From: a virus
Strand: one strand, 5' to 3'
DNA: 44,079 nt
IMG/VR virus record: IMGVR_UViG_3300029892_000190
Span: 1 to 44,079 of that record
Positions 8,121 through 28,320 of the stretch are shown here, piece after piece (within the stretch, counting starts at the first letter, position 1; each line of letters opens with the position of its first letter). The position numbers and the translations under genes were made by a program. The notes under the pieces are model-generated. The model did not search any database. It was not told the DNA's origin and worked only from the letters and a program-made list of their open reading frames with translations.

Positions 8121-8527
8121 AGGGGGGCTCGCACAATGAACTTTCGTCCATTGTGGAAGCCCGTGACTTCAAGAAAAACGCTGGAAATGTTTCCCGCAGG
8201 CTCCGGCAGCGTCACTTCCAGAACCTCGATGTCGGTCAGCGCCGGTGCCCGCACCGTCAAGGCGGTGCGCACCATGGCCAGCGCCTCAAGCCTGGCGTTG
8301 CTGTTCAGCGGCTGGCGGCGCACGTGCCACAGGCCGCTCCCGGCTTCCGGGTCGGCATACCAGCCGCGCCGGTCGAAAAGATCATCCACCCGGCTAGCCG
8401 GGGCCTCGGCATCGGTATAGAGCACACCGAAAACCAGCGTGGCCGCTGCCGCGTCGGCGTCGGCCTGGGCAGGGTCATCGACCGCCAGGTCGAAGCGGCC
8501 CCAATCCGTCTGCACCAGTTTCAGCAT
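8117..8527 (-). CDS. Mu gp46-like baseplate wedge protein
   Basis: A 136-residue protein of the phage GP46 family (DWGRFDLAV near the start, DDLFDRRGWYADP in the middle). In Mu-like phages this is a T4 gp25-like baseplate wedge part. It lies between gp45 and gp47 as in Mu. The ATG follows the gp45 stop by one base. The 3' end carries one of the four palindromic sites proposed for late control. Confidence 0.85.
   Translation of the reverse strand: MLKLVQTDWGRFDLAVDDPAQADADAAAATLVFGVLYTDAEAPASRVDDLFDRRGWYADPEAGSGLWHVRRQPLNSNARLEALAMVRTALTVRAPALTDIEVLEVTLPEPAGNISSVFLEVTGFHNGRKFIVRAPL
8132..8194 (-). promoter_or_regulatory. Putative late operator and hairpin upstream of gp47
   Basis: Read toward gp47, GGAAACATTTCC occurs at 8194-8183, and the 16-base CGCTGGAAATGTTTCC on the plus strand is identical to the copy upstream of protease I. 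A 7-bp inverted repeat (CACAATG/CATTGTG, 8132-8155) lies between the site and the GTG start. It lies inside the gp46 gene, so it could be a chance match, but spacing and orientation agree with the other three copies. Confidence 0.4.
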
Positions 8528-8528
8528 G

Positions 8529-9104
8529 TCAATTCACTCCCGAGGTCGGCGCACCTGGCGCATTGCTGGTGTGGGTATGGCTGTCGCTCACGTTCTTGCC
8601 GTTCACCGTGAAATCGTTGGTGACATGGAGGCCGCCCTGCATCTGAGCCGCGCCGCCGTCCGTACCGTAGTAGCCGCCGTTGGAGTTAGTCTGCCCCATC
8701 ACCACCAGGTTGCCGCCGATCTTGGCGTCCTGCGTCGTCTCGAACAGGGGCGTGTCGGCGATGACCTTGGTGGCGGCCTTGGCCTCAATGATCCCGCCGC
8801 GCTTGATGTGCACCCAGTTCTCTTCGTCGTCATGGATGGCCACTTCGCCCTCCACCAGGTCCATCTGGTAGCGCTTGTCGCCGATCACGATGGCCACGCC
8901 GTAGGAGCGGTCGCCGCTGGGGAACAGAAGGTAGGTCTGGCAGCCAGGCTTGGGCCGATACGAATAGCCGTAAGGCTCCACACGGTTGAGGTTGTGCAGC
9001 GGCTCTTCATCCAGCACACGCGCTTGCACCTTGTCCGCACCGATCATCAGGCCGACGCCCTGGGCGAAGAGCAGCTGGAGCCGGGTCCAAATCTGGCCAA
9101 TCAC
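8529..9104 (-). CDS. Baseplate spike protein (Mu gp45)
   Basis: A 191-residue central spike protein. The N-terminal part has an OB-fold-like region (VQARVLDEE ... NRVEPYGYSYRP), the middle is a beta-rich shaft (DAKIGGNLVV, GGAAQMQGGLHV), and the C-terminus contains DSHTHTS, the His-x-His motif that binds iron at the apex of Mu and P2 spikes. The protein punctures the outer membrane during infection. It overlaps the gp44 gene by four bases. Confidence 0.9.
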   Translation of the reverse strand: MIGQIWTRLQLLFAQGVGLMIGADKVQARVLDEEPLHNLNRVEPYGYSYRPKPGCQTYLLFPSGDRSYGVAIVIGDKRYQMDLVEGEVAIHDDEENWVHIKRGGIIEAKAATKVIADTPLFETTQDAKIGGNLVVMGQTNSNGGYYGTDGGAAQMQGGLHVTNDFTVNGKNVSDSHTHTSNAPGAPTSGVN

Positions 9105-10138
9105 TTCCTGCCTCCCTTCACTCCTGCGCCACGCTTGGCCTTCTTCTTTTCCTCGCCGATGAAGGCGTTCCGGTGCATGACCTGCAACAGCGTCACGCTG
9201 CCGCCCTTGTCATCCAGGCGGAAGGTGCGCTCGCCGATCAGGAACACGTCGTCGATGCCCTCTTCGGGGATGATGACCCGCACCTGGGTGTTGATGGCCC
9301 ACAGCTGCCAGTTTCCGCCCTCATCCTGGTAGCGCCAGCCCGGCACCTCCAGTTCGATGCGATGGGCACGGGCCAGCCGCCGGTTGCGCTCCAGGTTGGC
9401 CCTGCGGTCGCAGCCGCCCAGACCATGGCCATGCCGGTCGGCGACGATGTGCATGGGCCGGAAAAAGCTGATCCCGCCATCCTTGGCCGCGCCCTTCAAG
9501 GCCGCGTCGCTGGCGTAGTCGTAGCCCTTGATGACGTAGTCGGAGAAGCGCAGCTTGAACTCATCGACCACCTCGTAGCGCTTGATGTGCACCCCATATA
9601 CCAGGGAGGCGACGGGCGCAGCGTTGGTCGGCTTGGTCAGCACCAGGCCGCCATCCGGGAGCGGGTAGAGCAGCAGATTGGCCGCCCGCACCGCGTTGAT
9701 GAGGGCATTGGCCGGTAGCTCGCACTGCATGGAGAAATCAGGCACCACGGCGGTTTCCGCCTCGATCTTCACAGGCACTTTGAAGGTGCTGCAAATGCGC
9801 TTCACGATCTCGCCCAACTTGAGGCCGGACAGGGTCTTGGAATACTGGCAATCCACCAGTTCCCGCCCAAGCGACCGGGCTTCGATATAGATGGCGTGGC
9901 TGTCGGCATCGACCTGGCGGCGGACGCTGTCCGGGCGGACCTTCGTCACTAGGCCGTCGCCGATCAGCACGTCGGCCACCGTGTTGGCCGTCAGGCCCAG
10001 GGAATCCCCGGTGCCGGGGCGGGTGATGGCCAGGCGCACCGAGGCGCACAGGTCATCCACTGACTCCCGGATATCGACCTTCTGCCAGTAGCCGTAGCGC
10101 AGGCCGTCGAAACGGATCTCGGCCAACACCTCATCCAT
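9101..10138 (-). CDS. Baseplate hub protein (Mu gp44/P-like)
   Basis: A 345-residue protein corresponding to the Mu gp44 hub, a structural relative of T4 gp27. The N-terminus is beta-rich with SVRLAITRPGTGD, and the middle contains a LysM-like part (SGLKLGEIVKRICSTFKVPV). It connects tube and spike. The C-terminus is basic (KKKAKRGAGVKGGRK). Order gp43-gp44-gp45 is conserved with Mu, and the genes overlap by a few bases on both sides. Confidence 0.86.
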   Translation of the reverse strand: MDEVLAEIRFDGLRYGYWQKVDIRESVDDLCASVRLAITRPGTGDSLGLTANTVADVLIGDGLVTKVRPDSVRRQVDADSHAIYIEARSLGRELVDCQYSKTLSGLKLGEIVKRICSTFKVPVKIEAETAVVPDFSMQCELPANALINAVRAANLLLYPLPDGGLVLTKPTNAAPVASLVYGVHIKRYEVVDEFKLRFSDYVIKGYDYASDAALKGAAKDGGISFFRPMHIVADRHGHGLGGCDRRANLERNRRLARAHRIELEVPGWRYQDEGGNWQLWAINTQVRVIIPEEGIDDVFLIGERTFRLDDKGGSVTLLQVMHRNAFIGEEKKKAKRGAGVKGGRK

Positions 10139-11288
10139 AGACCCGGCCCCTTACGAACAGCGGATGCCGCACCGCATTGCGGGCCAGGAAAACCGCCTCA
10201 TCCACCCCCAGCCGGTGGGCCAGTACGATGGCGGGAAGCGGGGCTGTCACGTCGCGGTAGGTGGCGGGCTTCAAGTCCTGGGCCAGCAGCGCCTCGATCA
10301 GGGACGTGCGGGCAGCCACGGCGGCCTGGAACACCGGATCGGGCAGGCTGGGCAGCAGCACGTCGATGGCGGAGACCACGCTGGCCAGCGCCGCGTCCCG
10401 GTCGGCCTCGGCCCGGTAGTCAGCCATGGCCACCTGGGCGGCGGAAGTCACCAGCAGGCGGCTGCGCAGGGCCTCTTCCCGCAGCAGGTTGCGGCGCACC
10501 GCGCCATCCGTGGCGACGACGCCGGTAAGCGCCACGGCGCTCTTGGCGGTGGCCACACGGGCAATACGGGACACCACGCGGGGGCGGTCGGTGTCGGCCA
10601 GGCCGCTGCTGTCAGCGCCGCCGCCCAAGGCATCGGCCAGGCCCCGGAAGGCCGAGGCGTAGGCGGCGGGCATTCCCATCAGCGTGGCCAAGTCGCCCTT
10701 GACCCCGGCGATCAGGCCCTTGATCTGGTTCGCCCAGGTGAGCGGCAAGGTGGCCAGGGAAATCACCTGGCGCAGTACCTCCAGCTTCTGATGCACGGCG
10801 GCGATGAAGGCCGTCATGCCGTCGGCGCTCATCGGCTCCAGGCCGAAGTCATCCTCCACCGCATCCGCCAGCTTGCGGGTGCGGTCGAAGGCCACGTCCA
10901 CCATGTCCGGCGTCGGCTGCACAGTCTCGCCGCCGGGAACGAACTCGATGGCGATGGTGCAGTAGCCGCCCTTGTCGGTGCTTTCACGCAGCGACCAGTT
11001 GTGCGCCCGAACCCAAAGCAGGCCCAGCCACGGGTGGGTGAGCCAGTCCGCGCCCGGCTCGGCCAGCTTGGCCAGGAAGCCGTTGCGCTCCAGGTCGTAC
11101 TCCGGGCCGATGAAATAGGCGTTCAGCTTCCAGTCCCACGCCTTGCCGCCCAAATCCTGGGTGCTCGGCTGTTCCGCGCCGGGGTACTCATGCACCACCA
11201 GGCGGCGGCCACCCTTAGCATCGTGGCTTTCGGTCAGGAACTCGAAGCCCCGGAACGAGGCGCGGGACATGCGGTCAGTCCAGGTCAT
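10131..11288 (-). CDS. DNA circularisation N-terminal family tail protein (Mu gp43)
   Basis: A 385-residue protein whose N-terminal ~95 residues match the DNA circularisation protein N-terminal family (ASFRGFEFLTESHDAKGGRR, then HEYPG and DLERNGFLAKL). Despite the family name, in Mu this is a baseplate/tail protein, a relative of P2 gpD/T4 gp53 region proteins. The rest is helical. It overlaps the tape measure gene stop by four bases and the gp44 start by eight. Confidence 0.85.
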   Translation of the reverse strand: MTWTDRMSRASFRGFEFLTESHDAKGGRRLVVHEYPGAEQPSTQDLGGKAWDWKLNAYFIGPEYDLERNGFLAKLAEPGADWLTHPWLGLLWVRAHNWSLRESTDKGGYCTIAIEFVPGGETVQPTPDMVDVAFDRTRKLADAVEDDFGLEPMSADGMTAFIAAVHQKLEVLRQVISLATLPLTWANQIKGLIAGVKGDLATLMGMPAAYASAFRGLADALGGGADSSGLADTDRPRVVSRIARVATAKSAVALTGVVATDGAVRRNLLREEALRSRLLVTSAAQVAMADYRAEADRDAALASVVSAIDVLLPSLPDPVFQAAVAARTSLIEALLAQDLKPATYRDVTAPLPAIVLAHRLGVDEAVFLARNAVRHPLFVRGRVYG

Positions 11289-13357
11289 CCCGGCGCTCCT
11301 GTGAAGAGATTCCCGGTGTTCATCTGCACGTTGCCGCCGCTGGCCTGCATGGACTGGCCTTGCAGCACCAGGCCGGGGGCCAGGCCCACGGTCATCTTGG
11401 CGTTGACGTCGACGGGCTTCTGCTCGGCGGGCTTCAACAGGTCTTTGATGCCCTCCCAGGCCAGGCCGAGGCCGCCGCCGATGGCAGCGCCAACGCCCGT
11501 GCCCAGGACCGGCACGATGCTGCCGACCGTCGCGCCGAGGGCCGCGCCGTTCAGGGCGCTGGAGCCGTAGCGGCTGATGGCGGACTCTTCGCCGAATCCC
11601 TTCTCCAGGGCATAGCCGCCCACGGTGGAAGCGATGCCCGCGATCCCGCCGACCTTGGCCATCCGCATCGCGCCCTGGCCTACCTTGCTGGCGGTCGCCC
11701 AGGCAGCCGCCTTGCCAATCGCACCGCCGCCGGGCAGCCCCTTGCCGCCCATGGCCACAGACGCCAGGCCAGCGGCCCCGGCCAAGGCTCCCAGGGCGGT
11801 GGTGGCCAGCGTGGTGGTGCCGACCAGCAGCGGGTGCTTGCTGGCCAGGTCAGCGAACGCCTCGGCGGCCTTGCCGATGGCAGGGGTCAGGCTGTCCATG
11901 GCGGTAATGCTCGCCATATCCAGGCGTTCCTTGGCGACCCGCGTCTTGACGCCTGCGCGGTCGGCCATGGATTCGTAGTCAGTGTCGACAATCGACCCGG
12001 AAAGCCGCAAAGCCTCTTCTACCTTCTGGCCGACTTCTTTGTTCCGCAGGCCGAACAGCGCTCCCTTGGCTTGCATGTCCTGGAAGAACTTGCCCATGCT
12101 CTGGCCTTCCGCCATGCCATTCAGCGCCTCGATGGCGGCGTCCTGCTCTTCCTTGGTCTTGGCCCCTTGCAGCTTGGCAATGGCGGGCTTGAGATTGGGG
12201 TTCTTGGCGATTTCCGAGTCGATGACGTTCTGCCAGGCAGTGAGGGGGTCAATGCCCTTTGCCCGCTGATCCATCAGGTGCTGGTACAAGTCGCCACGGC
12301 CAGCCTTCTTGAAGTCCGTGGCGGTGTCATTCGAGGCCAGTTTGCTCAGCAGGTTCTTGACGTTGTTGGCTGCCTCATCGGACGAACCGGCGGTGGTTCG
12401 TGCCTGCTGCAACAGAACCAGCAGCTTCTTGAAGCCTTCCTCGCCCGTGAGGCCCGCCGTCTTGGCTATAGGCAGCAGCGACGGCAGGTGCTTGGCCATG
12501 TCGTTTTTCTCGAATGCCCCGGCAGTAGCGGCGGCGGAACTGATGCCCAGCAGCCGTTTTGCCCCTTCGGCATCCTTGGCATAGCCGCTGCCGATGAAGC
12601 CGCCCATCATTGCGGCGACATCCCGGCTGGTGCTGCCGGAGCCGGTGGAGACCTTCCCGATATAGGGCAACAGGTCCAAGGCACCGGCCACGCCGCCGAC
12701 TTGGTTATCCGCAATAAGCTTCTCCAGGGCGTCCATCGCGGCATCCCGCGTCATGCCGGTGCCGATGGCCTTTTCAACCGCCTTGCGTATTTGAGCCTCG
12801 CCGAGCTTGCGGCCATCCTTGCCGTATTCCGCAAAGGCGGTGTTGGACAACAGGCCAAGACGCTCATCGAAAGACATGGCCGTCGCCGCTGGGGCCTTGA
12901 GCGTGTAGGCGGCAGCGGCAGCGCCCGCGACGCCAGCAGCGGCAAACTTCACACCGGCATAGGCTTTCTGGGCAGTAGTCAGCTTGCCCATTTCGTTGGT
13001 GAGTTGGGTCACCTTCTGCCGCATCTGGTCGGCGGCGGCGGCCTGCTGCTGCCAGGACAGGGTGCCGGACGCTTTGAGGCGGTTGTAGGCGGCTTCGGTC
13101 TGCTGGATTTCGCGCTGGATGGCCCGCTCGGAACGCACCCCGAGCACCTCGCGGGCCTGGGATAGCTTCTCGTAGCTGCTGCGCTGCCGGGCGGTGCTCT
13201 TCTGAGTGGCCTCGGCGGCCTTCTGGGCGGCTTTCTCGGTGGCTGTCGCGGTCTTGGCCGCTTCCTGCTGTGCGGTCTGCGAGACGGCCTTGATGCCAGC
13301 CGTCGCGCCGTCCCTCATCTTGAGGCGGACTTCAACATTAACGGCGGACGACGACAT
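11285..13357 (-). CDS. Tail tape measure protein (Mu gp42)
   Basis: A 690-residue protein: N-terminal coiled coil (residues ~15-110, rich in Ala/Gln/Lys), then predicted membrane-like Ala/Gly segments near 135-155 and 505-535, and a Gly/Ala-rich C-terminal part (LPGGGAIGKAAAWATASKVG). It determines contractile tail length and probably forms a channel for DNA entry. The ATG is preceded by GGAG that lies inside the 3' arm of a 10-bp hairpin, so its translation may be restricted. It is the first gene after a likely terminator, separate from the gp41 cluster. Confidence 0.88.
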   Translation of the reverse strand: MSSSAVNVEVRLKMRDGATAGIKAVSQTAQQEAAKTATATEKAAQKAAEATQKSTARQRSSYEKLSQAREVLGVRSERAIQREIQQTEAAYNRLKASGTLSWQQQAAAADQMRQKVTQLTNEMGKLTTAQKAYAGVKFAAAGVAGAAAAAYTLKAPAATAMSFDERLGLLSNTAFAEYGKDGRKLGEAQIRKAVEKAIGTGMTRDAAMDALEKLIADNQVGGVAGALDLLPYIGKVSTGSGSTSRDVAAMMGGFIGSGYAKDAEGAKRLLGISSAAATAGAFEKNDMAKHLPSLLPIAKTAGLTGEEGFKKLLVLLQQARTTAGSSDEAANNVKNLLSKLASNDTATDFKKAGRGDLYQHLMDQRAKGIDPLTAWQNVIDSEIAKNPNLKPAIAKLQGAKTKEEQDAAIEALNGMAEGQSMGKFFQDMQAKGALFGLRNKEVGQKVEEALRLSGSIVDTDYESMADRAGVKTRVAKERLDMASITAMDSLTPAIGKAAEAFADLASKHPLLVGTTTLATTALGALAGAAGLASVAMGGKGLPGGGAIGKAAAWATASKVGQGAMRMAKVGGIAGIASTVGGYALEKGFGEESAISRYGSSALNGAALGATVGSIVPVLGTGVGAAIGGGLGLAWEGIKDLLKPAEQKPVDVNAKMTVGLAPGLVLQGQSMQASGGNVQMNTGNLFTGAPG

Positions 13358-13360
13358 AAG

Positions 13361-13394
13361 AAAAGCTCCAGAACCGGGGGGGTATCTGGAGCTT
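13361..13394 (-). terminator. Terminator-like hairpin covering the tape measure RBS
   Basis: A perfect 10-bp stem (AAGCTCCAGA / TCTGGAGCTT, 12-base loop) is followed on the minus strand by TTTTCTT. The GGAG for the tape measure gene (8 bases before ATG) is in the 3' arm. It could stop upstream transcription, hide the ribosome binding site, or both. Confidence 0.65.
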
Positions 13395-13417
13395 ATCGGT
13401 GGGTGCCCGGATGGGGC

Positions 13418-13437
13418 AGGCGTGAAACGTTTCCCGC
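13418..13437 (-). promoter_or_regulatory. Putative late operator upstream of the tape measure gene
   Basis: The palindrome GAAACGTTTC at 13424-13433 is part of GGGAAACGTTTCACGCC (read toward the gene), 67 bases upstream of the tape measure ATG. It shares GGAAACGTTTCACGCC with the site before the holin. Binding by the Mor-like activator is inferred. Confidence 0.5.
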
Positions 13438-13451
13438 TGGTTACGCTTGGC

Positions 13452-13867
13452 CTATCTGAACTGTCTGCCGCTCATCACGGCGGCCAATTCGGCCAGGACA
13501 TAGAGCTTTCTCAAGGGTAGCGCTTCGACCACCGGGAGCGGCTGGTGCATCACGTTCATCAGCAGCCCCACGGCGGTCAGGATGCGCACTACTTTTTTTG
13601 GATAGCTTCCTCGCCTTCCTCGGCCTCATCCGCCTGGATGAGTTCGTCGGCGATCTTCTCGGCGGCCCGGTAGTCGGGGCCGCGCAGCTGTCGGATGAGG
13701 CTTTCGTCAGTGCCGGTCAGGCTGGCGATCAGCGCGATCCGCTGGGCCACGCCGCCGCGCTGGTCGAACGCCAGGTAGTCCCCGGCGGTGGTGTGGTCGC
13801 GGAACGTCAGGGAGTCGATGGTCTTCTTGCCGAAGGTCAGCGGGTGCTTAAGGGGTAGCTTGGCCAT
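13452..13867 (-). CDS. Programmed -1 frameshift product of the tail chaperone (gp41 extended)
   Basis: The gp41 frame ends CAA AAA AAG TAG, which contains the efficient slippery heptamer A AAA AAG (13598-13592) in the correct phase directly before the stop codon. In the -1 frame translation continues about 46 residues (VVRILTAVGLLMNVMHQ ... VMSGRQFR) to a TAG at 13452-13454, with GC3-rich codons and no start of its own at its beginning. The fusion is about 138 residues. This mirrors lambda G-T and frameshifted chaperones of contractile-tailed phages. The extension lies between the chaperone and the tape measure gene, as expected. Confidence 0.82.
13589..13867 (-). CDS. Tail assembly chaperone, zero-frame (Mu gp41)
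   Basis: A 92-residue protein with the beginning typical of phage tail assembly proteins of the Mu gp41/P2 E type (LKHPLTFGKKTIDSLTFRDHT) and an acidic C-terminus (ADEAEEGEEAIQKK). It would bind the tape measure protein during tube assembly. It lies between the gp49-like gene and the tape measure. The final three codons are the slippery sequence for the -1 extension. Confidence 0.84.
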   Translation of the reverse strand: MAKLPLKHPLTFGKKTIDSLTFRDHTTAGDYLAFDQRGGVAQRIALIASLTGTDESLIRQLRGPDYRAAEKIADELIQADEAEEGEEAIQKK

Positions 13868-13876
13868 GGTGTCCTC

Positions 13877-14176
13877 TTAGGCGGTTGCTTGCAGGGTATT
13901 GCGGAGGGCGTAGCCTTCCAGCGCCCAGATTTTGCCCTTGGCGTTGTCCCTGGCGATCTTGCGCCCCAGGGCTTCGTCAAAGTTCTCGGGGCTGGCGCAG
14001 GCGCTTTCGCCCACCACGTTGAAGCCGTTGGCCAGCGTCAGGCAGCAGACCGTCAGGGTGGTGTCGGGGAAGACGTGGTATGCCTCGCCGACGATGACCT
14101 CTTCGATCCGCTGGGGAGTGACGCGGGGCGCGGTCAGGCCCTTGGCCTGGATTTCCCGTTCGATGATGTTGTCCAT
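13877..14176 (-). CDS. Phage Gp49-like small protein
   Basis: A 99-residue protein with the C-terminal signature DNAKGKIWALEGYALRN, characteristic of the Gp49-like family found in many phages. The family features an N-terminal helix, a CCLTLANGF beta strand and this helical end. The role is unknown. It sits between the tail tube and tail chaperone genes, with 9-base gaps on both sides, and so belongs to the tail operon. Confidence 0.72.
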   Translation of the reverse strand: MDNIIEREIQAKGLTAPRVTPQRIEEVIVGEAYHVFPDTTLTVCCLTLANGFNVVGESACASPENFDEALGRKIARDNAKGKIWALEGYALRNTLQATA

Positions 14177-14185
14177 GGTTGCCTC

Positions 14186-14548
14186 TTAGGAAATCTGCTC
14201 GGAGGTGTTGGACATGATGGTGAGCTTGCTCTCGCCGTCGCCGACCGGGACCGGCTCGGTGACGAAAGCCATGCTCATCATATGCACGTGGCCATCGGCC
14301 AGGCGCACCGTCACGTCCTCATCCTTGATGGCGTTGAGGGCAATGATGTCCACCCCGCCCAGCAGGTTGATGTTCAGTTCCAGCTTGGCCGGAACGCCGG
14401 ACTCGGTGAAGCCGCCGTCTTCCGGCAGGCGGCCCCCCTTGTGTTCGCGCTTGACCCCGCTCGGGGTGAAGGTGCCGGGCTTCTCCGCCAGCGGCAGCTT
14501 GCCGATGGAGGGCACCGACACGGTGCGGATGTTGTTGATTTGTGCCAT
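14186..14548 (-). CDS. Tail tube protein (Mu gp40/M-like)
   Basis: A 120-residue protein with alternating strand pattern (VPSIGKLPLAEKPGTFTPSG; PAKLELNINLLGGVD; DVTVRLADGHVHMMSMAFV), matching the Mu tail tube family. It polymerises into the inner tube, directly downstream of the sheath gene as in Mu. Confidence 0.86.
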   Translation of the reverse strand: MAQINNIRTVSVPSIGKLPLAEKPGTFTPSGVKREHKGGRLPEDGGFTESGVPAKLELNINLLGGVDIIALNAIKDEDVTVRLADGHVHMMSMAFVTEPVPVGDGESKLTIMSNTSEQIS

Positions 14549-14590
14549 GGGTAAAGCCCTTTCAAATCGGGTTTGGGATCAGTGCGCTGC

Positions 14591-18518: not shown

Positions 18519-18965
18519 TCAGCACTTGCCCTTGGCCTTGGCGAAATCCTCGGGGGTGACGCCCATGCGCTTGCACATCTCCAGTTCTTCCTGGGTGAGG
18601 CCGTTGCCGCCATCCTTGCCGTCGGTCTGCTTTTTCAGGACGGCCAGGGGGTTGGTGGCTTCCAGGTACTCGGTGAGGTCCGCCAGGGACTGCTTTTCCG
18701 CCCAGGCTTTCTGGGCCGGGGTCAGGCGGCCATCGTTCAGGGCCGCCGTCAGCAGGTCGGTATGCTTCGCCTTCTCGGAAGCTAGGGCGGCATCGGCCTT
18801 TTCCTTCTCCAGGGCGTCCAGCTTGGTCTTCTGAGCGTCGCGCTCGGCGGTCAGGGTGGCCAGCTGGGTTTTCAGCCCATCGCGCTCGGCGGTGAGCGAC
18901 ACCACTTGGGTTTTCAGGCCGTCACGCTCGGAAGTGAGCGCGGCCACTTGCTTCTCGTCAGCCAT
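18519..18965 (-). CDS. Scaffold protein from internal start (Mu Z-like)
   Basis: Inside the protease gene an in-frame ATG at 18965 is preceded by GAGGAGG five bases upstream, stronger than the signal for the full protein. The 148-residue product (MADEKQVAALTSERDG onward) consists of the coiled coil and C-terminal region. Mu makes its scaffold Z from such an internal start of I, so the same arrangement is likely here. Confidence 0.75.
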   Translation of the reverse strand: MADEKQVAALTSERDGLKTQVVSLTAERDGLKTQLATLTAERDAQKTKLDALEKEKADAALASEKAKHTDLLTAALNDGRLTPAQKAWAEKQSLADLTEYLEATNPLAVLKKQTDGKDGGNGLTQEELEMCKRMGVTPEDFAKAKGKC

Positions 18966-19520
18966 ATCGGCCTCCTCTTCGGTTGAAAAAACGGAATGCT
19001 TCCGGGCCAGGTCGGCCAGGGCGTCCAGCCCGTCCAGGGCGGGGGTGTTGGTGAGTGCCACGGAAATGATTTCCAGCACTTCGCCGGTAATGAGGTCGAA
19101 CATGAACACCGCGCTGATGTAGCGGTACTTCTTCTGGGCGATCAGATCGGGGGTATCGCCGACCCAGCTGATGTTCAGGGCGTAGAGGCCCTTGCCCTCG
19201 CGCCACTCGATGCTGCGCGGAATCCAGCCGGCAGCTTCGGCCCGCTTGCCGTTCTCGGCAGAGCGCAGGCTCTGGTGCTCGAAGTCGATCAGGATGTCGG
19301 TCTTCTGGGCGGCGGCCCGCGCAATCACACGGGCGGCGATGGCTGCGTCCAGTTGCCAGTCTTGGCAATGAACACCCTCCATGGTCCCAGGGCGGCCATC
19401 CAGGGCGCGGAAGGGGCCGGGGGGCAGCAAGTGGGCTTCGACGGGGATACCTCCGTCACCCGGCAATAGCTCAAATGCCAGGGAGGCGATGGAGGTCTTG
19501 GTGGTGGTCTTCTGGGGCAC
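18519..19520 (-). CDS. Head maturation protease I (Mu gp32) with C-terminal scaffold
   Basis: A 333-residue protein. Residues 1-180 form the Mu I-type protease domain (TDILIDFEHQSLRSAENGKRAEAAGWI; SWVGDTPDLIAQKKYRYISAVF; ISVALTNTPAL). Residues about 190-270 are a coiled coil of repeated ERDGLKTQ units, followed by a scaffold end. It begins with GTG at 19520 after AGGAG, and that AGGAG lies in a 7-bp hairpin. It is the first gene of the minus late arm, separated from G, its usual neighbour in Mu, which is at 35955 on the other strand. Confidence 0.9.
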   Translation of the reverse strand: MPQKTTTKTSIASLAFELLPGDGGIPVEAHLLPPGPFRALDGRPGTMEGVHCQDWQLDAAIAARVIARAAAQKTDILIDFEHQSLRSAENGKRAEAAGWIPRSIEWREGKGLYALNISWVGDTPDLIAQKKYRYISAVFMFDLITGEVLEIISVALTNTPALDGLDALADLARKHSVFSTEEEADMADEKQVAALTSERDGLKTQVVSLTAERDGLKTQLATLTAERDAQKTKLDALEKEKADAALASEKAKHTDLLTAALNDGRLTPAQKAWAEKQSLADLTEYLEATNPLAVLKKQTDGKDGGNGLTQEELEMCKRMGVTPEDFAKAKGKC

Positions 19521-19524: not shown

Positions 19525-19547
19525 TGCTCCTAAGCAGTTCAGGAGCA
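19525..19547 (-). promoter_or_regulatory. Hairpin covering the RBS of protease I
   Basis: A 7-bp inverted repeat, TGCTCCT (19547-19541) and AGGAGCA (19531-19525) on the minus strand, with a nine-base loop. The AGGAG serving the GTG start at 19520 is in the 3' arm. Confidence 0.5.
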
Positions 19548-19574
19548 TTTTTCCCGTTGGGGCGGGTTCGATCA

Positions 19575-19596
19575 CCGCTGGAAATGTTTCCTACCC
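19575..19596 (-). promoter_or_regulatory. Putative late operator upstream of protease I
   Basis: Read toward the gene, GGAAACATTTCCAGCG at 19591-19576 contains a 12-bp near-palindrome 60 bases before the start. The region from 19548 to 19756 holds no gene; besides this site it has only short inverted repeats (a GCCCC/GGGGC pair near 19650). It is directly downstream of the mor-like gene. Confidence 0.5.
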
Positions 19597-19756
19597 GGTG
19601 GCTTGGGGAGGACTTCCATAAACGCGATTTGAGGCGTTTTGACGCCCCGGTGGGGCCGTCCTATACCCAAGGGCCTGTGAGGCGCTTTTAAATGGCTTTC
19701 AAATGCAACAATGGGCATTCGTGCGGCAGGGGTCGATGGGCCGAACCGCCAACCGC

Positions 19757-20212
19757 TTAAAACAGGTCGAATTGCCTGTCGTCGTCTTCCCGGCAGATGT
19801 TCAGAATCTGGCGGGAGGAAAGATGGTTGCGACGGGCCAGCGTGTTGATGCTGGCGTGGTTGCGATCCTGCCGAATCTGGGCGTCGCGCACCCGGATGAA
19901 GAGCTTGTCGGCCTTGGGCAGCCAGCACCGGCCCGCTGCGTCCAGGTGCGGGGCCAGCGTCACCCGCAGGCGGGACAGTTCGTCCGGCTCCAGGCCCAGC
20001 GCTTGGGTGCGGTAGGTAGGGATGGAGACATTCACCCCGCCGTGGTCGGCCAGCCATTCCCGCGCCCGGCCAAAGCCCAAGGCCCGCACCACGGCCCGCA
20101 GGACCGGCGGCAGGGTCTTGAGCAGTTCCTCATCGACAGCGGGGAAGCTGCTGTCCTCGCGCTCCAGACCGGGCGCAGCTGGGAGGGTTTGACGGTGGCG
20201 CGGGAGTCCCAT
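19757..20212 (-). CDS. mor: Mor/C-family transcription activator
   Basis: A 151-residue protein; residues about 55-151 match the Mor transcription activator family, with a C-terminal helix-turn-helix (ASINTLARRNHLSSRQILNI). In Mu, Mor activates the middle promoter and its relative C the late promoters. No second family member is visible here, so this protein may turn on late genes directly. Its gene is last in the early operon and lies 177 bases from the late operator before protease I. It begins 4 bases after the GemA stop. Confidence 0.86.
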   Translation of the reverse strand: MGLPRHRQTLPAAPGLEREDSSFPAVDEELLKTLPPVLRAVVRALGFGRAREWLADHGGVNVSIPTYRTQALGLEPDELSRLRVTLAPHLDAAGRCWLPKADKLFIRVRDAQIRQDRNHASINTLARRNHLSSRQILNICREDDDRQFDLF

Positions 20213-20215
20213 GGC

Positions 20216-21164: not shown

Positions 21165-21165
21165 G

Positions 21166-21786: not shown

Positions 21787-21804
21787 TGCTTGTTGCTCCG
21801 GTCA

Positions 21805-22173: not shown

Positions 22174-22648
22174 GCTTGAAGTCCTCCAGGGCGGCGATGC
22201 CGGAGAGGGTCCGCGACGCCTGCTTTCCGGCGGCCAGGCGCGGCGCTCCGTCGGTCACCACCTGGCCCGCCTGGGGCCGGTAGCTGCTGATAACCTCGTA
22301 GAGCCAGCCGTGGCTCTTGAGGGGCGTTTTCAGGCGGCCAGCGTCGCGGGCGGCCAGGCTCTGCTCGATGGCCCAGACCCAGGCATCGGCGGGGGCATCG
22401 AACACCTGGCCGTCGCGGCTGATGCGCTGGGCTTGGATGTCCGGCAGGATTTCGCCCAGCAGGCGGCCCACGCGGTCCATGGTCAGTTCCCGCGTCTCGG
22501 GGCGGAACAGCGCCAGGTAGCGCACCACCGCCGCGCCTAGGGGGCCGGAGAGCTTGAACACGGCGGCCAGGGCCTCCCGTGCCCCGTCATGGGCCACCAG
22601 GGCGTCCAGAGAGAGGGTCGCGCCGCAGGACGGGCAACGGGTGCGCAT
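22163..22648 (-). CDS. Early protein with N-terminal zinc-finger-like CxxC
   Basis: A 161-residue protein starting MRTRCPSCGATLSLDAL. The single CPSC pair recalls a rubredoxin-like knuckle but no second cysteine pair is present, so zinc binding would need a dimer or histidine partners. The middle is helical (LTMDRVGRLLGEILPDIQAQRI), and DAWVWAIEQSLAARDAGRLKTPLKSHGWLYEV is reminiscent of replication or DNA-binding helices. Start codon overlaps the upstream stop by one base. Confidence 0.62.
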   Translation of the reverse strand: MRTRCPSCGATLSLDALVAHDGAREALAAVFKLSGPLGAAVVRYLALFRPETRELTMDRVGRLLGEILPDIQAQRISRDGQVFDAPADAWVWAIEQSLAARDAGRLKTPLKSHGWLYEVISSYRPQAGQVVTDGAPRLAAGKQASRTLSGIAALEDFKRGG

Positions 22649-22983
22649 CAGTTCGGCTCCGCCCAGCTCAAGACGATGCCCTCGAACTTGCCCGAGACCA
22701 CCGTGCAGCCGCCCTCGGTACGGAACGAGCGCGGCCCCATGCGATTGAGCAGGGGTGCGACCGATACCGACGCATCCCGGCGAATGTGGGCCTGCGGCAC
22801 CGGCCCGGCCAGGCGGCTCCAGACGATGTGGAAACCCAGGCGGCGCAACTCGCGGTCGGCGGCATTGAGTACGGCCAGCCGCTCCTGGAACGTGGCGGTG
22901 AATACCCGAGGGGCGGACTGCTGGGGCAGTGCCACCGACACGGGCGCTGCGGCCTGATTGGTAAATGGGATGACGGTCGGCAT
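22648..22983 (-). CDS. Early protein, unknown
   Basis: A 111-residue protein. The N-terminal 35 residues are Ala/Pro/Gln-rich and probably disordered; the rest has ATFQERLAVLNAADRELRRLGFHIVWSRL, a helix followed by a strand, and a basic IRRDASVSVAPLLNRMGPR segment. The gene lies immediately after MuB with an 8-base gap. I do not recognise the family. Confidence 0.6.
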   Translation of the reverse strand: MPTVIPFTNQAAAPVSVALPQQSAPRVFTATFQERLAVLNAADRELRRLGFHIVWSRLAGPVPQAHIRRDASVSVAPLLNRMGPRSFRTEGGCTVVSGKFEGIVLSWAEPN

Positions 22984-22991
22984 GATCGGCC

Positions 22992-23939
22992 TCAGGCAAC
23001 CGATTGGAGGCAAAGGGCCTGCTTGGCCACCGCATCCACCAGCTTCACGTCCAGGGCACGGCCCCGGCGGAATTCCTTGATCCCGGCAATCAGGCCCTCG
23101 ACCAGCATCCGGGCGCTGCCCTTGCAGTAGGCGTACAGGCGGGCGATGACCTCTTCGGCCACCTCTTCTGCCCCGAAGGCAGACTGCACCAGGGCGGCGG
23201 CGTCGGCGTCGGTGATGTGGCGCACCGTCTCCGGCCAGAAGCCGGTGCGGGAGCGAATCTGGTCGAACTGGCCGTGCTGGGGCTTGATGAGGCCGGAGAG
23301 GTGTTCGGTGCCGCACAGCACGATGCCGATGTTCGCCAGGTCGCGGATGCGGCGGATGGTGTGCAGCTGGTGCGGCGTCAGGGTCTCGGCCTCATCCACG
23401 ATGATCAGGCTGTCGGTGTTCTTGAGGCTGGCCACCACCTGGTCGAACTTGTCGGCGATGCTGCCCTTCTCCAGGCCGACCACCATGCGGGCCAGCAGCT
23501 TGGTCAGGCTCTGCGGGGTCATCGTCGGCGTGGCTTCGATGACGTAGGTGTTAGGGTGCGTGGCCGCATAGTGCTTGACGGCGAAGGTCTTGCCGGTGCC
23601 GACGAAGGCCGACAGCACCGCGAAATTGCGGTAGCGCCGGGCCATGTCGCAGGCGATGTTGGCCAGGCGGAAGACGCTGGTTTCCACCGGGGCAATGATG
23701 TGGCCGCTGGTTTCGTCGGCGTGGCGCATGGCGGACTCGACGGCAGCCAGCATCTTGGTGGGGCTGGTGGCATACACACCCTTGATGATCTGGTTCAGGC
23801 TGCTGCTGGAAATGCGGGCCAGCCGGGCCAGGGCGGCCTGGGTGTATTCGCGGTCGGCGATCCACTGCCGGGCCTTTTCGATCATGGCCACGTCGGCACT
23901 GGTGTAGTGGCTGGGCCACACGGTTTTTTGTTCAGTCAT
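22992..23939 (-). CDS. MuB-like AAA ATPase, transposition target selector
   Basis: A 315-residue AAA+ ATPase. Residues ~30-58 form a helix-turn-helix (YTQAALARLARISSSSLNQI), Walker A is GTGKT at 114-118 and Walker B VDEAE at 181-185. MuB forms ATP-dependent filaments on target DNA and delivers it to MuA. The ATG at 23939 follows GGGGGAAAA; a TTG at 23957 is less likely. It overlaps nothing but follows transposase by 14 bases, the A-B order of Mu. Confidence 0.92.
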   Translation of the reverse strand: MTEQKTVWPSHYTSADVAMIEKARQWIADREYTQAALARLARISSSSLNQIIKGVYATSPTKMLAAVESAMRHADETSGHIIAPVETSVFRLANIACDMARRYRNFAVLSAFVGTGKTFAVKHYAATHPNTYVIEATPTMTPQSLTKLLARMVVGLEKGSIADKFDQVVASLKNTDSLIIVDEAETLTPHQLHTIRRIRDLANIGIVLCGTEHLSGLIKPQHGQFDQIRSRTGFWPETVRHITDADAAALVQSAFGAEEVAEEVIARLYAYCKGSARMLVEGLIAGIKEFRRGRALDVKLVDAVAKQALCLQSVA

Positions 23940-23953
23940 GGTTTTCCCCCTAG

Positions 23954-25612
23954 TCAAATGTCGTCAAACAGGTTGATTTCTTCGCCGCTGGGGGCATCCA
24001 GCAGGCGGGTGGCAGTGCCTTCCAGCACCGCGCCGTCGGCAACGGCGTCGGCGTCGATGACCAGCCCGGCGCGGGCCTTCTGTTCGTCCATCTTTCGTTG
24101 CAGGCGCTTCATGGCGTCCTCGGCGCGGGCCTGGCGTTTCTCTTCCAGGCGATTGGTCGGGATGGCGTCCATTTCGCTGACCAGGTGGGCGTCACAAATC
24201 CAGCGGCCCTCCTGGGTGCGCATGACGCCGACGGTGTTGTCCATGAGGTCGTACTCCAGCACCAGCTTCTGGCCGTTAAAGGCATGCAGGTCGGGGTGCT
24301 TGTAGAAGCGCTTTCCGTGCTTGACCATGGCGCGGCTGACGGTGAGCACCACGGCCTGGCGCTTGAGTTCCGTCACGCTTCCGGCGGGCGGGATCGGCAC
24401 CAGCTTCGACCACAGTTCGGCGCGGGTTACCCGCTGGTCTTCCGGGTGGGGCCGATGGACGTAGCGGTTGATCCAGGCGTTGAACGCATCGGCGAACTCG
24501 GCCAGGGAGGGCAGTTGCAGCCGCCCGGCCTTCACTTCCGCCACGGTACGGTTCAGTGCTTCCGGGGCCATATCGTCACCGCAGTACAGTTCCGGGTGCC
24601 ACAGCTTGAGGAAGTCGTCGCGCATGCTTCGGAAGAAGCGCTCGATCCAGCCCTTGCCGTGCGGATTGCCGGGAATGGCGTGGATGATCTGCTGGATACC
24701 GGCGCGGGCGTAGAAGCCCGTCATGTCGTCGCTCATCAGCCGGTTCTTGTGCCCGGAGCCGTTGTCGACGTAGAGGAATGGCGGCACGTGGTTCCACTTG
24801 GCGAAGCACTCAGCCCACATGTTCTGCACGGCGTAGGTGCCTTCGTGTTCGTCTGCCCGCCAGTGCACCGGCATGCGGCTGCGCATGTCCATGGCCACGG
24901 TCAGTTCGGGCCGCCAGATGTCGCCGGTCACCGGATGGGCCAGATACACGTCGGCGCGGTAGCCGTCGGCCACATACACGTCGCCGGGCAGGGCGTTCTC
25001 GGTGGAGCGCTTGATGTAGGCTTTCTCGGTGAGCTTGTAGAGGTTCTTGCCGATCCGGGCCGGGCTGTTGCGTCCGAGCATGGCGGGTACTCCTGTCAGG
25101 TAGTTGCGCACCTGGTCGTAGCTGACGGCGAAGCCATCCACCTCGACCAGCTTGCGGTGCACCGCGCTCATGTCCGGCTTGCTGGGTGCGTTGAAATACT
25201 CCAGGGCCGGACCCCACCAGCCAGCGGCTTCCACCACCCGGCCCTTGTGGTCGGGCAGCAGGTAGGAAATGCCGCCCTCCCTGTGCTGGGCGCACCATTC
25301 GCAGATGGCCGAGCGGGAAGGGGCGGAACGGCCAGCCTTGGCCGCCCCGGCCAGGGCGACGGCGAAGTGGGCAGGCAAGCGACCTGCGGCGGCCCGCTCC
25401 AGCAGCAGCGCCACGGCGTTGTTTTGCGTGACCCCTTCGTCGGTCAGGCCACGGATGTAGGTCACCACGGTTTCCCGCCAGGTGGCGACCTGCCGGGCAC
25501 GATCCGTGGCTTCCCGCCAGGGGTCGCGTGCCCGCAGGGCCAGCACCTGAGCCGTCGGCATCACCGCCACCGCGCCACCGGACCCTTTGCCGGACTCGAT
25601 GCGCTTGACCAT
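23954..25612 (-). CDS. MuA-like DDE transposase
   Basis: A 552-residue DDE recombinase. Catalytic residues are visible in the expected contexts: D in VADGYRADV (about residue 216), D in YVDNGSG (283) and E in KGWIERFF (324), with the IIHAIPGNPHGKG loop before the Glu. N-terminal ~120 residues are helical DNA-binding; the C-terminal basic helix (EKRQARAEDAMKRLQRKMDEQ) would contact MuB. The ATG at 25612 with AAGGGAG is preferred; 25627 is an alternative adding five residues. It catalyses integration and replicative transposition. Confidence 0.95.
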   Translation of the reverse strand: MVKRIESGKGSGGAVAVMPTAQVLALRARDPWREATDRARQVATWRETVVTYIRGLTDEGVTQNNAVALLLERAAAGRLPAHFAVALAGAAKAGRSAPSRSAICEWCAQHREGGISYLLPDHKGRVVEAAGWWGPALEYFNAPSKPDMSAVHRKLVEVDGFAVSYDQVRNYLTGVPAMLGRNSPARIGKNLYKLTEKAYIKRSTENALPGDVYVADGYRADVYLAHPVTGDIWRPELTVAMDMRSRMPVHWRADEHEGTYAVQNMWAECFAKWNHVPPFLYVDNGSGHKNRLMSDDMTGFYARAGIQQIIHAIPGNPHGKGWIERFFRSMRDDFLKLWHPELYCGDDMAPEALNRTVAEVKAGRLQLPSLAEFADAFNAWINRYVHRPHPEDQRVTRAELWSKLVPIPPAGSVTELKRQAVVLTVSRAMVKHGKRFYKHPDLHAFNGQKLVLEYDLMDNTVGVMRTQEGRWICDAHLVSEMDAIPTNRLEEKRQARAEDAMKRLQRKMDEQKARAGLVIDADAVADGAVLEGTATRLLDAPSGEEINLFDDI

Positions 25613-25630
25613 TGCGCTCCCTTTCATGGC

Positions 25631-26668
25631 TTATTCCCCGGCAGCGGTCTTGTTGGTCGAACCTTTCGGACGACCCGGCCCCTTGGGCTTGGCGGCATCC
25701 CGCTTCTCCTGACGGGCGGCGGCGTCGGCGGCGTGGCGGTTTTCGATCATGGGATAGTCCAGCATCCAGCGCTGAGCCTCGGCGGGGGTGAGGATGTGCT
25801 GGCCCATGACGCGCTCGGGCATTTCGCCGTCCCGGACGCTATCTTTCATCCGCTCCACCATGTCCAGGGCGCGGGCGGCCACCACGTGGGCGGTCACCCA
25901 GATTTGTTCGATCTGGAGCTTCCATTCGGGCAGGCTTGGGTCTTCGGCGCGGACCTCTTCAAACAGCTTTTGCAGGCTGTTCAAGTTGAGTTCGGCTCCC
26001 AGCTGGAGGGCCATGCACTCTTCGCGGATTTCCTCGGTGCGCAGCAGGAACTCGGTGGTGCGCTTTTTCGTCTCGGTCAGGCGTTTGACCATCGACTGCG
26101 CCCGCTCGATTTCCGCCTCGTAGTTCTTCTCCCGGCGCTTCAATGTCTGAATCTCTTCCTTGAGTTCAGCGACCGTCATCAGGTCGGCCTTCTCGATCAG
26201 GTCATTTCCGGACTCGGCGGCCTGGTCGATAACTTCCTGCGGAAGAGATGCCAACAGCAAGGCCGGTTTTTTGCCGATTTGAAGCAGTTGACCGCGTTTG
26301 TCATCGGGCAGGCGGGCGTAGAACTTGGCGAGACTGATGCACTCATAGACGCGCTGCTTGGTGAGTCCAGACGAAGCTATCCACTCTTTGAAATCCTGAG
26401 TCCGCCCGGCGGACTCGGCATTTTTCAGCGCCTCTTGTGCGGCCCAAAAGGCTGCGCCAGCCCGGCAGGAGCGGAGCATGCTCTGATTCAACTCATCGAT
26501 TCCGACCTGCAAGAACTCATCAGCCGTCAGGGAGGAAAAGCCAAATTCGCGCAGGCAAACAGCAAGCTGCTGATGGCTGGGTTCGCCGGAAGATGCGACC
26601 AGGCCGGTAGCAACCTCTTGGTTAGCGGCACCTTCATCGTCGCCGTCGATTTCCAATTCAAATTTCAT
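25631..26668 (-). CDS. Early DNA-binding protein with DUF3102-like region and AT-hook-like tail
   Basis: A 345-residue protein. The N-terminal half has ALKNAESAGRTQDFKEWIASSGLTKQRVYECISLAKFY, resembling DUF3102/ParB-type helix-turn-helix proteins, followed by a long coiled coil (about 165-225, LKEEIQTLKRREKNYEAEIERAQ). The C-terminus PKGPGRPKGSTNK contains the GRPKG core of AT-hooks, which bind AT-rich minor grooves. It precedes the transposase in the same operon. The ATG at 26668 with GGAGAG is chosen over TTG 26680. Possible roles are nucleoid-like protection of phage DNA or help in transposition; both are inferred. Confidence 0.68.
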   Translation of the reverse strand: MKFELEIDGDDEGAANQEVATGLVASSGEPSHQQLAVCLREFGFSSLTADEFLQVGIDELNQSMLRSCRAGAAFWAAQEALKNAESAGRTQDFKEWIASSGLTKQRVYECISLAKFYARLPDDKRGQLLQIGKKPALLLASLPQEVIDQAAESGNDLIEKADLMTVAELKEEIQTLKRREKNYEAEIERAQSMVKRLTETKKRTTEFLLRTEEIREECMALQLGAELNLNSLQKLFEEVRAEDPSLPEWKLQIEQIWVTAHVVAARALDMVERMKDSVRDGEMPERVMGQHILTPAEAQRWMLDYPMIENRHAADAAARQEKRDAAKPKGPGRPKGSTNKTAAGE

Positions 26669-27119
26669 TTTTCTCTCCAATCTCGAAACAGAGTTCAGAC
26701 TCGGCAGCGAAGGCGCGAACCTTTTCCGCCATCCGTTTGTTCAGCTGGCTTCCGGCTTCAATCCGCGCCAACAGATCAATCAAAATCTTTTTGAGTTGAA
26801 TGGTCCCGTGAAGCTTTCCGCTGTCGCAGGCAACCATTTCCTCAATGAGCTTGAGCATCGCTAGGCAGGCGGACTGGTCATAGCTGAGGGGGTTTTCTGC
26901 TTTGCCGACTTCGTCGCCCATCCGAACCTTCGTCGGATGCCAGTGCTTACCGCCCGTCGGAAGCTGCGATGCCATTCCGGCCAGCACGGTGAGTTGTTGA
27001 GCCAGTCGAAGCAGATCAACCGGGCGAATTTCCATGCCGTTGAACGGTTCGGAGTCGAGAACTACCAGCGGCTGCCCGTGGCAGCAGCGGGTGAGCGTGG
27101 ATTGAATTGCGATAGTCAT
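26658..27119 (-). CDS. Early protein, unknown
   Basis: A 153-residue protein. Helices predominate (PVDLLRLAQQLTVLAGMA; YDQSACLAMLKLIEEMVAC; LKKILIDLLARIEAGSQLNKRMAEKVRAFAAE). No motif recognised. It is the second gene of the early operon after the Ner-like gene and overlaps the following gene by 11 bases. Confidence 0.6.
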   Translation of the reverse strand: MTIAIQSTLTRCCHGQPLVVLDSEPFNGMEIRPVDLLRLAQQLTVLAGMASQLPTGGKHWHPTKVRMGDEVGKAENPLSYDQSACLAMLKLIEEMVACDSGKLHGTIQLKKILIDLLARIEAGSQLNKRMAEKVRAFAAESELCFEIGEKNEI

Positions 27120-27140
27120 GGGATTTGTCCGCCGGTAGAA

Positions 27141-27320
27141 TCAGGCTGCTTTCTTCATACCGAGCGCAACGGCGATCTCATGCCCTTTGCCGTACAGGGC
27201 CTTGATCTGTCCGTTGAGCACCAGATACACGGTGTGGCGGTTGTAGCCATGATCCTTCGCCCACTGGGTGATGGTCTGGCCTTCTCGCTTGAACTTGGCT
27301 TTAACTTGGTCTGCGGTCAT
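27141..27320 (-). CDS. Ner/Cro-like small helix-turn-helix regulator
   Basis: A 59-residue protein starting MTADQVKAKFKREGQTITQW. The segment TITQWAKDHGYNRHTVYLVLNG is a helix-turn-helix, and the rest (KGHEIAVALGMKKAA) is like Ner/Cro-family phage regulators, which repress both repressor and early promoters after induction. It is the first gene of the early operon, divergent from the repressor; the intergenic operator is 76 bases long. Confidence 0.78.
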   Translation of the reverse strand: MTADQVKAKFKREGQTITQWAKDHGYNRHTVYLVLNGQIKALYGKGHEIAVALGMKKAA

Positions 27321-27338
27321 GGCGTGTTACCTCGCGTT

Positions 27339-27396
27339 GTCTGTGGAACATATTAAGTAGATTATATCTACTTTTGTAGATTTGCAAGGGGGTTTT
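27339..27396. promoter_or_regulatory. Divergent early/repressor promoter and operator
   Basis: Three alternating copies of GTAGAT (27357-27362 and 27376-27381 forward, 27366-27371 reversed as ATCTAC) make the perfect palindrome AGTAGAT-TAT-ATCTACT plus an extra half-site. The minus strand has TATAAT at 27366-27361 and TTGCAA 15 bases upstream, an early promoter buried in the operator. AT-rich composition contrasts with the surrounding DNA. Confidence 0.7.
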
Positions 27397-27822
27397 GTGT
27401 CGGACTTTGAAAAAGGCTTGTTGAGGCTGAAAGAGCAGCTTGGCGTGGCAACCGACAAAGAGGCTGCTGACTTCCTGGGGCTTTCAGACAAGGCATTGAA
27501 TGCCAGGAAAAGACGGGATAGCTTCCCGACCAAAGAAGTCTTCGCGTTGGCAGCGCAGCGCCCCGAGCTAGGGCTTGACCCTGACTGGATCGTGACTGGC
27601 GGCAGCCACAAGATGGAAACGGCGGGCAGCCGCGAGGCCAGCCTATTGCAGTGTTTTCGAAAATTGGCAGATAGGGATCAGCAGCGGCTGCTACAAACGG
27701 CGCTGCTGTGGTCGGGGGAGATGGTCCTGGCGTTACCGCCAAAGCCAGCCGATGATGATATTGACTTGCTTGGTGAAATACTTGGCCGGGACACAGGGAC
27801 TACGCGAGGGAGCAAGGAATGA
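27397..27822 (+). CDS. Phage repressor (CI-type helix-turn-helix)
   Basis: A 141-residue protein with the bacteriophage CI repressor-type DNA-binding domain at the N-terminus (LKEQLGVATDKEAADFLGLSDKALNARKRRDSFP, then ALAAQRPELGLDPDWIVTGG). The GTG start at 27397 has AAGGGGG five bases upstream. The C-terminal part has no protease-like Ser/Lys dyad that I can see, so induction may not be by self-cleavage. It diverges from the early operon and keeps the lysogenic state. Confidence 0.85.
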   Translation: MSDFEKGLLRLKEQLGVATDKEAADFLGLSDKALNARKRRDSFPTKEVFALAAQRPELGLDPDWIVTGGSHKMETAGSREASLLQCFRKLADRDQQRLLQTALLWSGEMVLALPPKPADDDIDLLGEILGRDTGTTRGSKE

Positions 27823-28235
27823 TTCGATTTCTGCTCATCGTCATACTTGCCCTTCCGGGCATGGCGGCTGCAAAGCCAACCTATCAGCAAGCCCGCGCAA
27901 TCTACGACGCCATGGGCAAGACGATTGACCAGAGCGGCATTTGGTATCAGAAGGACCGCCAAACGCGGATTGGATTGGCAAGAGACGCTGCTGCGCTGGT
28001 CAAGAAAGCCGAGGCTGTTTTTGGCTCGGATGTTCTGACATCACCGTACCGTTCGTGCCTGAGAGCCGCCATCGGGCATCAGTCATTCGTCACCTATCTG
28101 AACGACCTCGCTGACGCGGTGCAGGGCATCACCAACATTTCCGATTCCCACAAGCTTTTCGGACCCCTCCCAGATACTGCACGCTTTGGCGATGCACGGG
28201 CATGGTGCTACTCTGAGATTGAAACGCTCCGATAG
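27819..28235 (+). CDS. Secreted small protein co-transcribed with the repressor (lysogenic conversion candidate)
   Basis: A 138-residue protein with a signal peptide (MIRFLLIVILALPGMAAA, cleavage after AAA near residue 18). The mature part has helical character and two cysteines (YRSCLRA, RAWCYSE) that could form one disulfide. It overlaps the repressor gene by four bases (ATGA), so it is expressed in lysogens. Phages often place exclusion or host-fitness genes here; I do not recognise the family, so the role is open. Confidence 0.7.
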   Translation: MIRFLLIVILALPGMAAAKPTYQQARAIYDAMGKTIDQSGIWYQKDRQTRIGLARDAAALVKKAEAVFGSDVLTSPYRSCLRAAIGHQSFVTYLNDLADAVQGITNISDSHKLFGPLPDTARFGDARAWCYSEIETLR

Positions 28236-28280
28236 GGCTTGCGCCGCCGGATGGCTCGCTGACCATCCCGTAGCCTCCCC

Positions 28281-28298
28281 CCTGGAAACGTTTCACGC
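28281..28298 (+). promoter_or_regulatory. Putative late operator upstream of the lysis operon
   Basis: GGAAACGTTTCACGCC at 28284-28299, 73 bases upstream of the holin ATG. The 10-bp core palindrome GAAACGTTTC and the following ACGCC equal the site before the tape measure gene. A TAATCG eleven bases downstream may be a weak -10 element. Confidence 0.5.
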
Positions 28299-28320
28299 CT
28301 AATCGCGCCTCGCGCGCCCG

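Follow-up and report, generated by a model that had tools for sequence, protein, structure and literature searches.

The Mu-like prophage in IMG/VR record IMGVR_UViG_3300029892_000190, the whole stretch of which was analyzed (44,079 nt, hereafter called the window), raises the question of how late genes lying in two divergent arms are switched on, and what part is played by a short palindrome that precedes them. The sequence GGAAACRTTTC occurs four times at the coordinates given in a preliminary description of this DNA, without any further exact match in the 44,079 bases. The expected number is 0.02, and none of 1000 simulations under a first-order Markov model of the window reached four. When up to two mismatches are allowed, the 11-mer shows no enrichment in the window (17 instances against 12 expected), so that only near-exact sites count. 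The four sites lie ahead of gp47 (baseplate J-like, 7074..8120, minus strand; PF04865, E=1e-46), the tape measure protein (11285..13357, minus strand; phrog_794, E=1e-124), protease I, which opens the leftward late arm (18519..19520, minus strand; PF10123, E=1e-63) and the holin as the first gene of the rightward lysis and packaging arm (28367..28720, plus strand; PF13272, E=4e-32). Their distances from the gene starts are 64, 67, 61 and 73 nt, respectively, in agreement with the 60-73 bases previously proposed. As 12-mers, they read GGAAACATTTCC for gp47 (8183..8194, minus strand, inside gp46) and protease I (19580..19591, minus strand), and GGAAACGTTTCA for the tape measure (13423..13434, minus strand) and the holin (28284..28295, plus strand); all four are conserved in relatives. 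The shared flanks noted earlier are also real, with GGAAACGTTTCACGCC common to the tape measure and holin sites and GGAAACATTTCCAGCG, read on the gene strand, common to those of gp47 and protease I. What does not hold is the constant orientation relative to the downstream gene that had been claimed: relatives carry either reading at one and the same promoter (for instance GGAAATGTTTCC at the protease promoter of L005) and, the sequence being a near-perfect palindrome, its orientation is not conserved and has little meaning.

A motif search in related prophages had been proposed as a check of these sites, and we carried it out on a first set of relatives retrieved via Mor and protease I. The palindrome is kept at the four places in most of the relatives examined. 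Protease I, the tape measure gene and the divergent holin are preceded by GGAAAYRTTTCC or a one-base variant in L005-L020 and L026-L028 wherever the contig reaches, and the same is true of gp47 in relatives. Near-complete relatives contain three or four palindromes, mostly four and at the same four places, whereas the reversed-pattern control gives none; in those examined, the sites also lie ahead of late units in both divergent arms, as the preliminary description had it for the window. In whole records, each near-complete phage has four sites, and the host genomes of 2.9-3.0 Mb contain few others. The motif deduced from 70 sites is the longer GCKGGAAAYRTTTCCMGC, with C at -2 in 67 and G at +13 in 68 of them. 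The palindrome is absent from the distant protease relatives L021, L022, L024 and L030 and from phage B23; L029, which had seemed to lack it too, was removed from this group because degenerate versions (GGAATTATTTCC, GTAAAAATTTCC and GGAAAAATTTCC) stand at the same places. Chance repeats or coding coincidences, for which one could invoke the location of the gp47 site inside gp46 and the chance frequency of the 11-mer with two or fewer mismatches, have a negligible probability, given that exact sites exceed expectation and that the same four places are kept in relatives with protease identity down to 49%. We thus regard the four palindromes as almost certainly the operators of four late promoters.

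The genome plan deserves a separate remark. Lysis, terminase and portal genes occupy one arm of the late region, and protease, head and tail genes the other. Such a split was described in 2008 as unique to Burkholderia phage KS10 (PMC2628397), but it appears to be common in this phage group, since in near-complete relatives (G006-G048) the holin site diverges from the others. Genes for an integrase, an AAA_25 protein, a minor-tail-Z-like protein and (by eye) a tape-measure-like protein flank the Mu-like element (window positions 1-3300 and 37000-44079), which suggests that it sits inside another prophage of the integrase type.

Which protein would read these operators? Only one Mor-family protein was identified in the prophage, as previously stated, namely the 151-aa product of the gene that immediately precedes the leftward late arm (19757..20212, minus strand). 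It scores 26.1 bits with PF08765 (curated cut-off 24.9) and matches phrog_836, 'late transcriptional activator', with E=8e-17. Mor and C of Mu consist of a dimer domain at the N-terminus and a C-terminal helix-turn-helix. The AlphaFold2 model of the window protein has a pLDDT of 80, and the five best PDB matches of this model are Mu C (9l0x) and Mor (1rr7), with E values of 0.37 or worse that are not significant. A Mor homologue is present in relatives having the sites. The association was also examined from DNA alone, by searching IMG/VR with a protein-free pattern composed of the palindrome, 31 nt, CTCC, 8-28 nt and GGAG. This composite pattern was found in 48 stretches at spacing 31, compared with 52 stretches over the ten spacings 36-45 and 34 over the ten spacings 18-27, corresponding to an enrichment of about tenfold per spacing. 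Correct spacing was seen in 35 new records, of which 20 encode a Mor homologue (E 1e-42 or better), among them every one of the 15 that exceed 21 kb; none of 35 control records with wrong spacing does so. The 20 Mor-bearing records mostly have four exact palindromes each, and none in the reversed-pattern control.

The palindromes might instead be operators of some other protein, either the CI-like repressor of the prophage or a host regulator of the LacI type. Symmetric cores of the AAACGTTT type are common operators of repressors and LacI-type regulators, and the sites of Cra/FruR presumably resemble TGAAACGTTTCA. We consider this very unlikely, because a position near -45 without a -35 element suits an activator rather than a repressor, and because four sites per phage recur in contigs of several hosts while being rare elsewhere in the host genomes. 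Moreover, the presence of the palindrome tracks that of the Mor homologue, as in the counts above, and the phages TJ1 and KS10, which have diverged Mor homologues, have a diverged palindrome at the matching late promoters. This co-occurrence of DNA pattern and Mor, together with the Mu-like geometry described below, sustains the earlier proposal of the Mor-like protein as candidate binder, and we judge it very likely that the protein binds the four palindromes.

The geometry of the promoters was deduced by counting offsets from the end of the palindrome 12-mer. Two columns vary hardly or not at all in the relatives: offset 28 is A and offset 32 is T in 16/17 holin, 18/18 protease, 19/19 tape measure and 16/16 gp47 promoters, the surrounding hexamers differing otherwise between classes (TAANCT, xAnnAT, TAARCT and CAYAAT, in the same order). 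The two most critical bases of a -10 element are A-11 and T-7, and the invariant positions fit these bases of a weak -10 at offset 27-32; after the column counts, this assignment replaced an earlier choice of offset 25-30 for the holin and tape measure promoters. In the window, the predicted -10 elements are CACAAT for gp47 (8150..8155, minus strand; +1 near 8143; CACAAT or CATAAT in relatives), TAAGCT for the tape measure (13390..13395, minus strand; +1 near 13383; A-11 and T-7 invariant in the class), AAAAAT for the protease (19547..19552, minus strand; +1 near 19540; A-11 and T-7 in 18/18 new relatives) and TAATCT for the holin (28323..28328, plus strand; +1 near 28335; A-11 and T-7 in 16/17 new relatives). 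The centre of the palindrome would thus lie at about -45 relative to the extrapolated +1. No -35 element is recognizable at the four promoters (match of 2.8-3.3 of 6, against 2.7 for random sequence).

Judged from these predicted starts, a dyad near -45 without a -35 and with a weak -10 would reproduce the geometry of promoters activated by Mor and C in Mu, where the site bound by Mor at Pm is a dyad of 16 bp with its centre at -43.5, taking the place of the -35 (PMC4390567). Pm and the C-dependent Plys, PI, PP and Pmom similarly combine a dyad at the activator position with a weak -10, and Mu resembles the window phage in having a Mor/C-type activator gene and four late units, those for lysis and protease I among them (PMC4390567, PMC4461284). 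In distinction to Mu, the operator sequence is another one, a single Mor-type protein was found instead of a cascade from Mor to C, the late units are divergent, and promoters precede the tape measure gene and gp47 whereas Mu has P and mom. Mu late promoters (positions 9000-29000) contain no match to the palindrome, indicating that the present promoters work like those of Mu without belonging to the same operator class.

At three of the four promoters, those of holin, protease I and tape measure, a hairpin has its 5' arm in the last bases of the -10 together with the discriminator, and its 3' arm contains the Shine-Dalgarno sequence (SD) of the gene. These hairpins were absent from the preliminary description and may matter more than the operators. 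The holin has a perfect 15-bp hairpin, with GTAATCTCCGGTTGT (28322..28336, plus strand) pairing with ACAACCGGAGATTAC (28349..28363, plus strand), the latter including the holin SD. For protease I, the 5' arm GCTCCT (19541..19546, minus strand) is the discriminator itself (-6 to -1), and AGGAGC (19526..19531, minus strand) contains the SD. In the tape measure promoter, AAGCTCCAGA (13385..13394, minus strand) overlaps the -10 and the discriminator, and TCTGGAGCTT (13363..13372, minus strand) contains the SD (TGGAG) and is followed by a T-run. When the 40 genes of the window are ranked by burial of the SD, holin, tape measure and protease I occupy the first three ranks, in this order. No conserved SD hairpin was seen at the gp47 promoter among the relatives compared; the candidate CACAATG..CATTGTG was rejected, since relatives have CATCGTG, CTTGTG and other sequences and the coding of gp46 explains the match.

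The two arms covary. Those of the holin change from GTAATCTCC/GGAGATTAC to GTAACCTCC/GGAGGTTAC (L028, G035) and GCAAACTCC/GGAGTTTGC (G015, G016), and those of the protease from GACCTC/GAGGTC (G049) to AACCTC/GAGGTT (G048), both arms being altered together. In all three classes, pairing is better between arms matched by lineage than between permuted ones (z of -6.8, -6.9 and -5.3, with 0/20000 permutations each, for 24, 26 and 26 distinct promoters), in a test where shuffling leaves shared ancestry in and where arms and loop lengths vary widely. The tape measure arms were too uniform in a first small set (1852/20000) and became informative once more genomes were added. Loop lengths vary, but the anti-SD keeps a constant distance from the operator (31 or about 34 nt), which favours pairing in RNA over a second protein operator. 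The first lysis gene of G024 and G044, read from its encoded start, looks like an endolysin and not a holin, and the retention of the hairpin ahead of it indicates that the hairpin belongs to the promoter.

From the -10 at offset 27-32 with its near-invariant A-11 and T-7, it follows that the predicted +1 should fall within the 5' arm or beyond it. The probability of an unpaired SD, averaged over 88 promoters, is 0.08 for read-through RNA, rises to 0.28 when the upstream part is shuffled and reaches 0.40 for RNA beginning at the predicted +1. The value for late RNA exceeds that for read-through RNA in 82 of the 88 promoters, and the same holds for starts at offsets 35-41; being only about 0.4 in late RNA, it predicts a partial switch. 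On the long RNA, the SD is paired in a stable and conserved hairpin, a feature of gating of the type described for T4 gene e. Directly upstream of the three genes, and co-directional with them, lie the repressor operon (holin), the Mor operon (protease I) and the head operon (tape measure). The CI-like repressor gene (27382..27822, plus strand; PF07022, E=1e-6), upstream of the holin and co-directional with it, is the likely source of read-through RNA into the holin gene in the lysogen.

We propose on these grounds that a dimer of the Mor-like protein (19757-20212) would bind each palindrome, centred near -45 and replacing the -35 element, and would recruit or activate the host sigma-70 RNA polymerase at the weak -10 (xAnnnT). 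Read-through RNA, which would come from the repressor operon into the holin, from the early or Mor operon into the protease and from the head operon into the tape measure gene, would have both arms, fold and hide the SD, leaving the gene untranslated. RNA begun at the late promoter would be devoid of the 5' arm, so that the SD would be free and the gene translated, and late translation would thereby be tied to the promoter that made the RNA. Gating of translation by the late promoters, in the manner of T4 gene e, is in our opinion probable, although both the +1 positions and the translational effect are deduced from sequence. For the whole model, combining activator-dependent late promoters with translation gating, our estimate is a probability of roughly 0.7.

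An alternative role of the hairpins would be exerted on the late mRNA itself, as stabilizers of its 5' end or as structures opened by a Com zinc-ribbon protein, as in Mu mom, where binding of Com is reported to melt the structure at the site of translation initiation (PMC6483171). A Com homologue is indeed encoded at 4140-4337, and a search of 20 near-complete records found one in 15. Such a role seems improbable to us, because the fixed operator-to-anti-SD spacing with variable loops is as expected for a 5' arm tied to the position of the promoter, and because the invariant -10 positions overlap the 5' arm, so that transcription should start downstream of most of it. Furthermore, the Com gene lies far downstream in the late arm, and Com was not found in several records of 36-37 kb that keep the hairpins (G015, G016 and G034, possibly fragments). 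The Com homologue (PF10122) overlaps a DNA N6/N4 methylase gene (PF01555; 3428-4207, minus strand), the position of com and mom in Mu; no GGAAAYRTTTCC promoter was found ahead of these genes in the window.

The hairpins could also be mainly intrinsic terminators of upstream transcription that overlap the next late promoter, the hiding of the SD being a by-product. The tape measure hairpin (13361-13395) has this appearance, since a T-run succeeds its stem in almost every relative (GGAGCTTTTTTTATG), and it may in addition terminate RNA coming from upstream. However, the holin and protease hairpins are usually without a T-run and yet their arms covary as strongly, and we consider termination unlikely to be the main function.

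Gating by the late promoters has its closest precedent in T4 gene e (and also soc, 49 and I-TevI), where a long early RNA hides the SD and the late RNA starts inside the structure, the late promoter lying within the sequence that encodes the 5' strand, which the late RNA consequently lacks (PMC3014915). Unlike T4, the present case involves a temperate transposable phage and a promoter that is probably of the sigma-70 and activator type, with the anti-SD in the -10 and discriminator, and the hairpin recurs at three late operons, capsid genes among them. The Mu mom/com system similarly has a stem-loop that closes the initiation region of a late gene (PMC6483171) but depends on Com for its opening; in our model, opening would result from the start site itself.

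Burkholderia phage KS10 and Curvibacter phage TJ1 have the same split genome plan and a related palindrome at late promoters which, in distinction to that of the window phage, is of the TGAARYRYTTCA type. GGTGAA-N4-TTCACC stands at the four matching places in TJ1 and a related site at three of them in KS10, and their Mor homologues are recognizable although below the Pfam cut-off. A hairpin arm overlaps the predicted -10 and discriminator at both holins and at KS10 gp44. The accessible passages of the KS10 paper do not mention these sites (PMC2628397). The protease starts annotated in KS10 (L165; 18120) and TJ1 (L167; 18593) fall within the predicted late operator or adjoin it; both are probably incorrect, the ATG at 18177 fitting better in KS10. 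Should the operator be centred at -43.5, the mRNAs of TJ1 protease, tail chaperone and gp46 (18570, 25572 and 31235) would be leaderless, starting at the ATG or one base before it. Short stems are also seen near the putative -10 of Mu (L164) PI and Plys, upstream of gene I and gene 22 (CTGCTCA/TGAGCAG and GCCATCA/TGATGGC, respectively). Mu and KP12 were considered as further cases of gating, given these stems at Mu I and lys and others at the KP12 holin and protease, but were set aside as merely suggestive, since burial of the SD is unexceptional except for Mu I (rank 3/28). Among the open-access papers searched, no report of the sites or of gating in Mu-like phages was found, and their novelty is therefore provisional.

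For dozens of uncultured Mu-like phages, the results provide the regulon of a late activator of the Mor type together with a concrete operator and a promoter layout, and with operator and layout known, a DNA pattern is enough to locate late operons. On balance, we favour the notion that, in the transposable phages of this large group, the late promoter acts as a translational password: with the anti-SD placed inside the promoter, only RNA made from a promoter activated by Mor would be translatable, a lock repeated at lysis, head and tail operons that may reach to KS10 and TJ1 and, more weakly, to Mu. If this reading of the hairpins is true, it would explain how a prophage with a repressor operon aimed at the holin escapes killing of its host by read-through, and the trick of T4 lysozyme would no longer be confined to single genes but would operate on late operons in a temperate phage, by means of bases internal to the promoter.
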